Below, one piece after another: positions 24,071 to 63,976 of a DNA stretch of 64,000 nt (positions within the stretch are counted from its first letter, which is position 1; every line of letters begins with the position of its first letter). The notes beneath the pieces are model-generated. The model did no database searches and was not told where the DNA came from. It was given only the letters and a program-made list of their open reading frames with translations. The stretch lies in contig OZ017750.1 in the NCBI GenBank assembly GCA_963969365.1, positions 2,232,001 through 2,296,000 of the forward strand, in the 5' to 3' direction. Made by a program: the position numbers and the translations under genes. Origin of the DNA: Asterochloris sp. CNOR1. Taxonomy: Eukaryota > Chlorophyta > Trebouxiophyceae > Trebouxiales > Trebouxiaceae.

Positions 24071-27000
24071 TCAGCCAGTCAGCCCCCGACACATGTACAG
24101 AGCCGCACGGCCAGCAGCCCCACCTTTAGGGGTGAGGGCCTCTGCCAGGGGCTCTGCCTTGCCAGCACCACCCATCAAGGGGAGCAGCGGCTGAAAGGGG
24201 CCCCTGACAGCATCGTCAAGGGCGCGTAAGCCCCGTGGGCTGCCCAGCGCCTGTGCCAGCGCTTGAGCTGCTGTCCTGCCGGCTGCCGACCTGCCCCGGG
24301 GGGGCGACCGTGGCCTCAAATGGTATCCCTCGGGCTCCGGGGTCAGCAGATACACGCCGTGGAAGGCTATCTGAGGCAGAAGGAGGCAGACCAGGTGAGT
24401 TACTGAAACTGTTGCTGCTGGGCAGGCGCGGTAGCGCCACGCCCCGCAGGCGCGGCGCAGGTGTGTGCCATGCAGCAGGCAGCGGTGCACGCTGGGGTTG
24501 CTGCTGCTGCTGCTGCTGCTGTGGGCTGGGGACTGACTGAGCCTCGGCACTGGGCTGCTGCTGGCTGGGCGCTGGCAGCTGGCCGGGGGGTTGCTCAGGG
24601 GAAGGGCTGCCAGAATGAGCATCAATTTCCCCCAGCGCGCCCCAGGCGGAGCGTAGGGACCCCGCAGGGTTGTTGTACTCGTGGGCCAGCATGGGCAGGC
24701 TGGGGTCTGCTGAGGCCCTTGGGCTCAGCATGGGCAGGCTGGGTTCTGCTGAGGCCCTCGAGCTCAGCAGTGACCCCTCGTCCCAGGCAGCAGGTTGCCC
24801 CTGTCTGTCACATGCCTGAGGCCCCGGTTGGTGGGCCGGGATGGTCCCAGCTTCCACATCTACCCCGTGGCCACCTGCCTGCCCTTGCCTGTGCTGCTGC
24901 TTGTGCTCCAGCTGCTCCACAAGGTTGCTATACTGCCCAGGCCGCCGTGGGGCAAGGGTGTTGCTGGCATCAGCCTGCGGCGGGACTGGGGGGCGTGGCG
25001 TGAGGGGGTCCTGCTTGCTGACTAGGTCGTCGAAGGCGTCCACCAGGGCCTCGGCAGGGTTTTCAAACTCTGGAACCTCTTCCGCGGTGGGGCGCGGCGT
25101 GCTGTCGTCCACCAGCAGTGGGTGCACCTTATTAATCTTTTTTGCCGTCAGGACGGGGGCCCCGCCGGCATGGTGCTGCTTGCCCGAGAGGATATAGACG
25201 CCCACAAAGATCAGCTGTGGAAGGGGAGGGGACATGGTTTCGGCAAGGGTTCACGCTGCTCACTGGCACTCGAGGCACTGACACACACTGCCTCTGCATG
25301 GCTGTAGGCTGCAAGGCTGTGCTGGAAGCCCAGTTCGCTGCATGCATGCAAGCAGCAGGCATGCAGGCAGGCATGCAGGGGCCAAGTCAGAACATGCCCT
25401 CACCACGACACCGACCGCAAACATCACAGACTTCAGGGTGTTGTAGCCCTTGTACTCCTGGTAATAGATGCCGCCAGAGAGAATGCTGAACAGCGTCCAG
25501 CTGATCTGCATGGTTGGTACAATGACCACAGCGGGGAAAAGCTTCAGTGCCTGCAGACATGTGGCAGCTGCTTGTCAGGTGCCATGTACAACGCTGTGTT
25601 GTCAGAGGCTGGGTTCACTGCTGAAATGGGAGTGCAGCCACAGCAGTTTCAAAAAGTGAGTGATGAGGCTTTGTGGGCATTCATCTCCATGACGAGGAGC
25701 TGCCCTTATGCTTGCAGACATCTGGCAGCCATCTGCATAGAACCTGGTGGAACAGCTTTAATGTTGCTGCTTGTCGCCGGCCAAGCAACCAGTGCAGATG
25801 TGTGCAAGTAGTGCAGTGTGAAGGGGATATCACTGCAACGTTGCTAGTCTGCCAGGCAGGCATGAGCTGGCCCCTTACGCAGCATATGAGTTTACACCGA
25901 CATCTGAAGGCAGGTCCTGTTTGGCTGAGCAAGAGCAGCAATAAGCATGCTGCCTTGTTACAGGCAAGCTAGGCTGACCTTGTTCAGGCGCGACACCCAG
26001 AATGCTGCTGTGCAGATGAAAAGCAGCAGCAGGACGTAGAAGAACCACGTGTCCAGCTGGCTATCGCCGTCAAAGGTCGTGCGCAGCAGGGTGGACAGCG
26101 CCTTGCTGAACAGTACGCTCTGGGTGCCCAGCATGCCACTGAACAGCGCAAACGAGATGGGCAGCAGCTTGGTCCATCTGCGCGACAGGTTGGCCTGCCC
26201 ATGGGCACTGCAAAACAGACTGCACAAGCTCAGCAGCAGGCCCGAGCAGCCTTAGCTTTCCAAATTTGTGCAGACCTGCAGGCATAGACAGATGTGCCAG
26301 CATGAGCAGCTGGAGCCAGCAGAGCTCATGCAGGCATGCTCCACTGCTGCAAAAGCAAGCAGCCATGCTCATGCAGATTGCCGTCGCTGCAAAGCACCAG
26401 GTGCCCTGCAGTCAAGGTGCAGAAATCACATGCTATCCACAGGATGCTTGAGCTTACGCTAGTTTGGCCTTGCCTATCCTATATATGATGTATGTGATGA
26501 CCACTGTGACTAGAAGCAGCACCAGATAGGTGATGTAGACTCGACTGCAAGCAGGGCATTTCCTGTTTTCAGTGGTCCTCTGTGCTTGTTGCAGTCTGAG
26601 CAAGGACTGCGGCGCCATATTTCCATGTTCACGCACCATGCAAGGGATGAGCTGCTGTGCACTGACCCCTTTGGCCAGCGACAGCCTGCTGTCAGACAAT
26701 GCTTGCTCTGCACCACATGCTGATCCCTCTGGCTGGCTTGCATCTCCTTGCTCTGGATAGTTCAGGCTCAGCTGGCACAAGGAAGCTGCAGCCTGACCGG
26801 GATGCCTCCGTGGACATACATGCGAGCATAGCCCTGCTGTGAAGGGCGGTGCACAACTCAGCAGCATGCTGGCAGGCCAGCTCACCTTTTGTAGTACTCC
26901 TGCAGCTGCTGAGCTGTGAGTGCCTTGCTGTGATGGTTGCCAAAAGTTACCAGCACGATGCAGCCGCAGACAATTAGAGCCGTGGCGAGCACTACCCTCT

Positions 27001-61300: not shown

Positions 61301-63976
61301 CCTTGGCCATCTTGTAGCTGCAGCACCAGCAGGTGAGGAAAGCATGACTGCCTGCTGGGGCTGTAAATGTGCATCGGTGATGTTTGCAGGTATCTCTACC
61401 TGTGGTAGCCATGCATCTCCAATTGCACCAGAATGCAGGGCATCTCTGGCAAATGCAGTATCTGCTGCATGTCAGATCTGCCTGGCTATTTGCTTGCCAG
61501 GCGGCGTCAGTTTGCACGCTATCTGAGGCAGTGAGCGGCCGAAACCTGGTCCTGCAGGTGCTGCCTTCGTCACCTTCAACTACGAGCAGCACGCACGCAA
61601 CTGTGTGACTGACCACCAGCGCCCTTGGTCCCATTTCTTTGGGGACACCCTGCTCATGCGCAGCAGCCGGGCACCCAGGATCAGAGGGCGCCGTGTCTGG
61701 GTGGAGAGGTCAGCCCCTGATGACATCAGCACCAGCACACCTCTTGAGTGCAATCTGCATGGGTATGCCCCCTGCTCTTGCCGATCAGGCCATGCTTGGT
61801 GTCTGCGCCTGCTGCGTCCCAGAGAAGAGGTGAGGAGCTCTGCAAGCCTGCTGCCAAGCTTATCTGGACCAGTACCCTGCTGAGCAGCATTGACATAGGT
61901 AGAGGCATACCTGGCACTGGCTGCTCTACGCAAGCTCAGCTGGCAGCACAGGAGTCCTGCAACCCCGCAGCACCTGATATGAGCAGCATCTTGCACGGGC
62001 TTGCTAGCCGCGCTGAGGCAGACTGCGTTCTGCTCCGTGGTCCGGGGACACAGCGGCTGGGGGAGGGAGGGGAGGTGAGGGGCCCCTGCATGTCAACTGC
62101 TGTGTGCAAGCAGGGAGTACAGGAGTCCTGCTTCCCTGCAGCACCTGTTATGAGCGGCATCTTACATGCGCTTGCCAGCCGTGCTCAGGAGGCTGCACAA
62201 CCTGCCCCAAGTCTGTCGGGGCAGCCTCCGGCTCAGAGGTGGAGAAGGGCGCTGCCCTGAATGTGCTACATCGGCTCCAGCAAGAGTGCTGATCACCCAT
62301 GGGCCCCTCTGTTGCAAGGGCACAGTCGCAGCCCCGCTGCGCGCGGCATGTGACCCTCTGCACAAGCCAGCTGTGCTCTGCTTCCATCTCGCCCCCCAGG
62401 TGGAGGGCACGCAGGCTGTGCCCCAGAAGTGAATGCAGCACTACCAACCTTCTGAGCTCATTGCCGCTGCCCCATTCTCCCCGGCGCCTCACAGCAACCC
62501 TTTTGTGACACCGCTATCCAAGGTGTGCCTTGACCACCTGCCGGTTGTGGCTGCAGGGCCCCTGAGCCTACAGACGTCTGGTGGGAGAACACTTCTGTCC
62601 AGGGGCGGGCAGCAGCCAGGAAGCGCCTGGTGTCCGCAGGTGCCACCCTCCTGCTGCTGGTGATTGGAGGCATCCTCCAGTACTTCCTGTCCGTGGCCTC
62701 GCAGCGGGAGCGCAACAAGCGCATCAGCTATGAGGTGGTGTCCCTCTGCGGCTGTGGCCACAGCACCCTGAGATGGCTGCACTGTGTGCGGTGATGCCCA
62801 AATGCAGGGGCCGCCCTCACTTGGCCACAGCACCCCACGGCAATTGCCCCTGTGTGCCTTGCTTGCTCCCAGCGCTCGGCCACAAGGTGTGGTCCCTTGC
62901 AGCGTACCCACAGCGACAGCATTGCTTGCGCTTTTGCCCAGTACAGCAGCTTTGATAGCTGCCTTTCACCCCTGGCTCATATGCTGCAACAACAGTGCAG
63001 AAGTTGCCCCCAACCAAGAGCAGCGCCTGTAGCTCATGCACATGGTGCCCATCTGCCAATCCTCTGCAGGTGGCCCAGGGCGATGACGTCAACACCAGCT
63101 ATGCCGACCTGTACATCATTGCAGCCCGCCAGCGCATCATCGCCCTCTTCAGTGGCATCTTCGTCGTCATCATGAACACAGCCATCACCATGGCTGTGAG
63201 GTACCTGTCCTTTTATGAGCGTTGGCACTCCCGTAGCGACCGCGAGAAGTGGCACGTCGTCAAGCTCAGCGTCTTCTACCTTGTCAACTCCTACCTCATC
63301 CCTGTGCTGGCCACCTCCCTCAGCGGCGCGCAGAACACCTGGTGAGGAGCGCAGGCAGGCTGTCGTGGCGCTGCCGGCTGTGGCATGCATGAAGCGGGCC
63401 TAGTGAAGCAGGGTCTGCCTGCGGTCTCAGCACACGCCCACGCTGGCCACCCCGGTGCGCGCAGAACAGCTGTGAAGAGCCCTGGTCTGATGCGATTAAC
63501 TGCGGTCTGTGAGCTGCATCCGCCAGCACCTGTCTGAGCGGCATGCAGAACACCTGGTGATACAGGAGTTATGCACTGCTGCCTGAAGCATGCAGAACAC
63601 CTGAGGTTGGGTTTGTGGGGCTGGCCACACCTGCCACCTGTCTCAGCAGCATGCAGAAGGACTGGTGGGTGATGCATCTCGTCTTCTGGATGCACATGCA
63701 GGCCACAGATACTTACAGGGTTGCCTTGGCTGTTCACATTGGCGTGCTCAAGCTGCTAGAAACACCGGGATGGCTGGATGCCAGCCTTGAAGAGCTTGCA
63801 GCTCCAGCGCCCTCATAGGTGCTCATGCAGCCCCGCTGTGCTGCTGCTGGTGCAGGTACGACAGGGGTGGTCTGATTGAGCAGGCCTTCTACATCCAGAT
63901 TGTGAATGCCATCGTCCCGGACCTCACAGATCTGCTCAACCCCTACCAGTTCGTACTGTACCACATCATGTCAAGG
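55314..63976 (+). CDS. OSCA/CSC1/TMEM63-type mechanosensitive cation channel (5' part, truncated at right edge)
   Basis: Calcium-permeable stress-gated channel family (DUF221/RSN1_7TM). Start 55314 (MSGQGDDLRTYSMAPVES). Exons: 55314-55517, 55677-56122, 56405-56537, 56834-56962 in phase, then approximate. The N-terminus is long, disordered and Gly/Ser/Pro-rich. Then GKTLLLYEFSRDAAGLPLPG, first helix ILLFGLVAFVLSLLSIYLIV, a Cys-rich loop (SGYCPKTWEV, CAANCVYTSQKLRQAQC, DGPCYCCDLQ), second helix QLWVLFVGQLVFLGWLLLL, and a PHM7-type cytosolic domain (DFTVLVTGLDSETTNDELSD, VQNLQNRHAEIQAW, NPLRALYWWYFVG, GAAFVTFNYEQHARNCV). The pore region follows with TLLLLVIGGILQYFLSVA, IIALFSGIFVVIMNTAITMA, LSVFYLVNSYLIPVLATS and YDRGGLIEQAFYIQIVNAIV. 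The Cys-rich extracellular loop is larger than usual. The exon with APEPSD-like residues was not found. Continues past 64000. Confidence 0.75.
57528..57660 (+). repeat. Exon-edge duplication in the OSCA-like gene (copy A)
   Basis: 57528-57577 (GGCAGGCCCAGTGTGCTGG, then CCTGCCTGATC and a CTT-ACTTTCAAGG end) is repeated at 57609-57660 in degraded form (GCAGCAGGCGAAGTGTGCAGG, CCTACCTGACAA, GCTGTCAAAGC) with about 70% identity by eye. Confidence 0.75.
57813..57988 (+). repeat. Intronic copy of the following exon start, 128 bp apart (copy B)
   Basis: 57813-57860 and 57941-57988 share GCCCCTGCAGGC, ATGTGGC, TGC, TGAGCACAGG and CCTGCTC at a constant offset of 128 bp. The downstream copy is within the Cys-rich coding exon. 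Confidence 0.8.
60181..60309 (+). repeat. Duplicated junction near 60.2 kb (copy C)
   Basis: GTGGTTGTCTGGGGCAGGCG followed by ACCCCCTGCCAGGTA at 60181-60215 recurs as GGTGGTCACCTGGGGCAGGC followed by CACCACCTGCCTGGCGAGG at 60271-60309. Both end in a donor-like AGGT or AGG-T. Confidence 0.75.
61950..62190 (+). repeat. 70-bp duplication, 171 bp apart (copy D)
   Basis: 61950-62020 and 62121-62190 share AGGAGTCCTGC, CGCAGCACCTG / TGCAGCACCTG, TATGAGC-GCATCTT and CTTGC-AGCCG-GCT. Roughly 80% identity by eye. Confidence 0.8.
63321..63671 (+). repeat. Exon end plus donor site copied three times in its own intron (copy E)
   Basis: The real junction at 63321-63347 (CAGCGGCGCGCAGAACACCT then GGTGAGG) has copies at 63530-63560 (GAGCGGCATGCAGAACACCT then GGTGA), 63582-63606 (CATGCAGAACACCTGAGG) and 63621-63671 (GGCCACACCTGCCACCTGTC, CAGCAGCATGCAGAAGGACT, GGTGGGTG). 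All lie in the intron that follows. Confidence 0.85.

Follow-up and report, generated by a model that had tools for sequence, protein, structure and literature searches.

Imperfect copies of an exon end inside its own intron in Asterochloris sp. CNOR1: a probable record of tandem duplication across splice junctions

The window analysed here is a 64,000-nt stretch of contig OZ017750.1 (C5) of the green alga Asterochloris sp. CNOR1, and the gene under study lies on its forward strand. The source exon (U0, 63070-63341) was placed by the HMM gene model and by the reading frame of the junction, TG/G..TAC (the slash marks the junction); its 3' end encodes ...SGAQNT plus the first 2 nt of W, with the terminal letters ...CAGAACACCTG, after which the intron begins with GTGAGG. 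The host intron (63342-63855, phase 2, 514 nt, GTGAGG...GGTGCAG) was delimited from the sequence, and its donor (PWM 6.47) and acceptor (PWM 7.37) were found to have the top values within this interval. The following exon (63856-63975), supported by both the sequence and the HMM model, reads G/Y D R G G L I E Q .... The HMM gene finder ends the host intron at 63595, owing to a pseudo-exon (63596-63664) built from the acceptor-like end of the third intronic copy and the donor-like end of the fourth. The first split codon of this 69-nt cassette is TGA; we do not believe it to be a real exon.

The identity of the gene is only weakly assignable. A Pfam Anoctamin match, below the cut-off, crosses the 63341 junction (residues 14-111 of 121, with the junction at codon 81), and a match to RSN1_7TM is also below the cut-off. 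The search of the peptide against solved structures gave no match (best E 0.69), and a search with the two exons returned only the gene itself. From its sequence the gene may be anoctamin/OSCA-like and is probably algal.

Four imperfect copies of the end of the source exon are present inside the intron. The repeat search gave a family of five 34-nt members, consisting of the exon end (63312-63345) and four direct intronic copies, whose ungapped identity to the exon unit is 62% (63443-63476), 85% (63527-63560), 62% (63574-63607) and 74% (63635-63668). The initial annotation had described three such copies; these are real and were correctly located, and the count has to be raised to four. It had also described every copy as resembling an exon end joined to its donor, which holds for U2 and U4 and fails for U1 and U3. 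U1 (63442-63480, score 37) extends from exon position -36 to donor position +9, has GC[GC]GCAG like the exon and retains the exon's GCGCGCAG, and its end reads CT/GTGAAG with one G missing ahead of GT. U2 (63527-63560, score 43), the copy with 85% identity, has GC[AT]GCAG and ends in CTG/GTGA, continuing as CTG/GTGATA. The weakest copy, U3 (63574-63607, score 24), has GCATGCAGAACACCTG in common with U2 and its donor is lost (CTG/AGGT). U4 (63620-63668, scores 30 and 18) runs from GCTGGCCAC (exon position -36) to CTG/GTGGGT, a strong decoy donor with a PWM score of 5.91 against a median of 5.34 for used donors.

The successive unit spacings from the exon end through U4 are 131, 84, 47 and 61 nt. 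GCATGCAG is common to U2, U3 and U4, and CACCTGTCT to U2 and U4; because these changes are held in common, the three copies seem to have descended from one another. When read into the exon, the changes common to U2-U4 would alter amino acids. The simplest order, drawn from a handful of bases, would be that the exon gave rise to U1 and also to an ancestor of U2-U4, which was then duplicated within the intron.

The significance of the copies was evaluated by local alignment of the last 40 nt of the exon and first 10 nt of the intron with the remaining intron. The four best local scores were 43, 37, 30 and 24, with a sum of 134. Comparison with shuffled sequence had been set in the initial annotation as the refuting test, and in 1000 dinucleotide shuffles the maximum single score was 29 and the maximum four-hit sum 84, so that the claim was upheld. 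Almost the same limits (29 and 83) were obtained from 500 real segments of equal length, overlapping by half and taken from both strands of the remaining window. When the whole 56.4-Mb assembly was searched at the DNA level using the intron as query (best candidates scored), two places were recovered, the intron and the end of its own exon (85%, E 0.025), and no further place that would indicate a dispersed family of the intron unit was found among the candidates scored. The array is absent from the Tandem Repeats Finder list for the window, as is to be expected of copies that are decayed and unevenly spaced. The top hit of that program in the window is a separate 39-nt tandem array at 24682-24769, with 2.3 copies and 92% match.

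The survey covered the 64-kb window and the 190 kb that follow it on this contig, i.e. 254 kb (0.45% of the genome, GC 58.6%). A self-trained HMM gene finder, which learned AG/GTGAG donors and CTGCAG/G acceptors, predicted 658 introns; its output comprised 21 calls in which neighbouring genes are merged. Introns swapped in from elsewhere served as the control, and a score of at least 30 was the cut-off for a copy. Of the predicted introns, 26 of 438 contain a copy of the adjoining exon edge on the donor side (0.5 expected) and 23 of 462 on the acceptor side (0.3 expected); 3' and 5' junctions are affected with similar frequency in this sample. With 3 introns common to both sets, 46 are positive overall. 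The gene-finder entry for the host intron stops at 63595 (63342-63595), and U3 and U4 are therefore outside these counts. The pattern had been reported in several genes of the window, and 5 of the 46 positive introns do fall there, one of them being a CAG-rich low-complexity match.

Orientation and side were examined using the flanking introns alone. The last 50 nt of the exon were matched in the downstream intron in 18 of 339 cases (0.1 expected), in the upstream intron in 1 (0.7 expected) and as reverse complement in none (0.1 expected). Similarly, the first 50 nt were matched in the upstream intron in 17 of 339 cases (0.2 expected), in the downstream intron in 1 (0 expected) and as reverse complement in none (0.5 expected). 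The effect is concentrated at the exon edges, with 15/205 on each side versus 2/205 and 1/205 (0.1 and 0.25 expected) for sequence lying 41-90 nt inside the exon, and at 80 nt into the exon the profile had 0/194 and 0/192 matches. The median distance between copy and junction is 118 nt for the 59 copies, with a range of 47-700. Similarity extends to the intron flank past the junction (mean rank 0.664, 53 of 59 copies, KS p 1e-4), while the flanks of acceptor copies are hardly recognisable past about 6 nt. The direct orientation, the correct junction side and the extension of the match into the intron support the earlier proposal of a tandem duplication across the exon-intron boundary. Intron lengthening by such duplication had been proposed as well, and it gains support from the larger number of copies in longer introns: donor-side copies were found in 5 of 236 introns of 60-249 nt versus 14 of 72 introns of at least 400 nt, although longer introns also offer more room.

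Repeats in the 254 kb are mostly local and direct. Local BLAST pairs separated by less than 1 kb comprised 99 direct and 9 inverted pairs; of 126 direct pairs in all, these 99 lie within 1 kb and 7 at 5 kb or more, and inverted pairs total 17. When 40-nt windows were compared, 48 of 778 junction windows scored at least 28 versus 71 of 2182 interior windows, an approximately two-fold excess (Fisher p 6e-4, the windows being non-independent). At a score of at least 52 of 80 the relation was reversed, with 0/778 at junctions and 16/2182 in the interior.

Mismatches between exon and copy are distributed near-evenly over codon positions (76/513, 79/510 and 104/525, i.e. 0.148, 0.155 and 0.198; chi-square p 0.10), with a slight third-position excess. 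In copies anchored on the exon part alone, GT is retained in 13 of 29 and AG in 12 of 20, below the two-base expectation from the exon-part identities of 0.85 and 0.82; alignments that include the junction inflate retention to nearly all copies. These two results together indicate that the copies decay much like noncoding DNA. Selection on the copies was examined through the same GT/AG retention and codon-position bias, and no claimable signal was obtained. The shifting of splice sites, also suggested by the initial annotation, is not borne out: read-through beyond the used donor gives QNTW and then immediately a stop (TGA), and the copies hold GT/AG less often than the exon-part identity predicts.

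The copies, their orientation and side, their dependence on intron length and their pattern of decay were observed directly. From them we infer a head-to-tail duplication step, a wave of duplication that is for the most part over, and the succession of events in the host intron. The likely explanation, in our judgement, is that tandem duplications arose locally and in series across splice junctions, most of them long ago, and then decayed neutrally. Gene stretches of about 50-200 nt would be duplicated head to tail. Where a duplicate straddles a junction, the spliceosome would stay on the outer junction, and the exon piece, together with the intron's first (or last) part, would be absorbed, leaving a longer intron. 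In the host intron such events would have been repeated, U1 arising straight from the exon edge and U2-U4 one from another. The copies would afterwards decay as ordinary noncoding DNA. Junction copies would be conspicuous because one member of the pair, the original, is preserved in the coding exon, whereas two intronic sequences of equally old origin would both accumulate changes.

Simulations were used to evaluate the timing of the duplications. Steady uniform duplication was rejected, as it gave a junction/interior ratio of 0.35-0.56 over five settings versus the approximately two-fold ratio observed; in an earlier version of the steady simulation the ratio was about 0.4-1.3 (three settings). 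A neutral past wave, with about 0.2 substitutions per site since, gave window rates of 6.6% and 5.8% at junctions and 3.3% in the interior, compared to the observed 5.9%, 6.4% and 3.3%. This setting is one of five and was picked post hoc after the misfit of the steady simulations. It under-predicts near-identical interior arrays (0.23% vs 0.73% observed at a score of at least 60) and the 5' intron edge (1.0% vs 2.7%), and over-predicts deep-exon matches (0.8% vs 0.3%). Under a past wave, junction copies would remain recognisable for longer than interior ones, since the exon member of each pair hardly changes. In a second sample, 50 kb of contig C1 scanned with the C5-trained model, copies scoring at least 30 were found for 3 of 90 donors (0.2 expected) and 0 of 90 acceptors (0.15 expected), and no junction excess was seen at a score of at least 28 (3/152 junction vs 7/382 interior windows). 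The donor effect is thus present in the C1 sample and small; either the effect differs in level from place to place or the C5 region is the exception, and a genome-wide rate is not claimed.

The junction excess may also be read as copying aimed at exon edges, in which a process linked to transcription or splicing (R-loop breaks, RNA-templated or error-prone repair) favours junctions. About 40 nt at the junction would then be copied into the adjoining intron, the copies being over-produced and born imperfect. The two-fold excess in the 254 kb, which is three- to five-fold above the steady-state simulations, agrees with such a process, and so does the absence of near-identical junction copies at a threshold that 16 interior windows reach. 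However, the location-blind past-wave simulation yields a similar profile, the intron flank is duplicated as well, and the C1 sample is without a junction excess. Templated repair often produces inverted copies, and inverted exon-edge copies numbered 0/339 each way. We therefore consider an aimed process unlikely.

It is quite improbable, judging from the sequence, that the copies are used or retained, whether as alternative donors, pseudo-exons or decoys tuning splicing. The above-median U4 donor, the cassette that the HMM assembles out of U3 and U4, and the status of GT and AG as the best-kept flank pairs among the positions examined (they are also nearest the exon) would be in line with a use. 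Against this, use of a downstream donor adds an immediate TGA and the cassette holds a split TGA, and both the low GT/AG retention and the near-even codon positions point the other way. The chance that a dispersed repeat or introner-like element resembles the exon end by accident is very remote; such an element would account for the repeated structure and nothing further, the genome search having returned, among the candidates scored and besides the intron itself, its own exon end alone, and the repeats of the 254 kb being mostly local. Chance similarity or base composition, the latter in the form of a GC-rich intron with common words, has almost negligible probability as an explanation: TGCAG and CTG words are indeed frequent here, but the scores lie far beyond those of the shuffles and the real controls, and the intron-swap controls are near zero.

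Serial tandem duplication across junctions has relatives among known systems. In the potato RdRp gene (PMC4974935), splice signals were carried along when a tandem duplication extended over the border between intron and exon, and another 83-bp tandem duplication lies inside an intron of the same gene. The boundary-crossing duplication with its splice signals is the common feature. In potato, one recent event, demonstrated by RNA-seq, gave rise to a new intron as well as to extra exon sequence, whereas here the old junction is still in use according to the gene model and the copies are intron-internal, decayed, multiple and known from the sequence. In the model of intron gain through tandem genomic duplication (PMC4974935 and PMC3443670, citing Rogers 1989, Hellsten 2011, Gao and Lynch 2009), gene pieces with splice-like sites are likewise duplicated locally. 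As outlined in these sources, an exonic AGGT segment is duplicated and an intron created, from which exon-derived intron ends would follow; the host-intron copies, in contrast, sit inside an existing, growing intron. An AGGT-type gain was looked for in the host intron alone, where the copies (63442-63668) are internal and absent from the 3' end. Novel intron positions in Drosophila have been attributed to intron sliding or tandem duplication (PMC2891723). Regional tandem duplication near splice sites is again the source of change; there the intron position changes, whereas no change of position is shown for the host intron. Boundary-crossing tandem duplication (PMC4974935) and duplication-driven intron gain (PMC3443670) are already in print; among the papers listed by searches of the open-licence literature, none surveyed copies of exon edges as traces of how introns lengthened.

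The history of an intron is quickly lost, and a conserved exon used as reference keeps old straddling duplications visible. In the C5 sample a copy is present at either given end of about one intron in twenty. A single genome could hence be enough to measure both the growth of introns through local duplication and the decoy splice sites left over from it.

Homology support was sought for a minority of the 46 affected junctions, with six peptides compared to solved structures and the host gene and seven other peptides compared to Pfam. Four of the six peptides matched a solved structure. The protein alignment is unbroken across the junctions at 163027 in RPC1 (four donor copies) and at 250760 and 251533 in RIO1 (sample positions); at 203951, in a SnRK2-like kinase, it crosses as well, and a short insertion lies close by. 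The homologue is without a stretch just ahead of the junction at RPC1 161829 (acceptor copies), and at RPC1 153313 the acceptor side is aligned and the predicted donor side has 5 additional residues. Pfam matches cross the affected junctions of syntaxin (131062), Sec15 (247926) and an eEF1A/eRF3-like GTPase (226885), and also RPC1 158659, with a large insertion. For a polycystin-like peptide there was no solved-structure match and Pfam remained below the cut-off; the best SLBP stretch among the Pfam matches listed (25-56) stops short of the junction at 89, and the peptide of intron 221220 had no Pfam match.

Some of the other introns are of interest in their own right. RPC1 intron 163027-163950 (C5:2395027-2395950) contains four copies (88, 92, 76 and 88%) of the exon end encoding ...HTMLLADCMTFR, located at 92, 188, 284 and 384 nt, i.e. 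in steps of 92-100, and is a cleaner case than the host intron. In RPC1 intron 161829-162800 (C5:2393829-2394800), four copies of the 3' junction with the start of the next exon (80-89%) form a mirror image of the host intron. In intron 76309-76636 (C5:2308309-2308636), a 24-nt stretch near the intron start is present in two copies 84 nt apart, which are alike mutually and 92% identical to their source.
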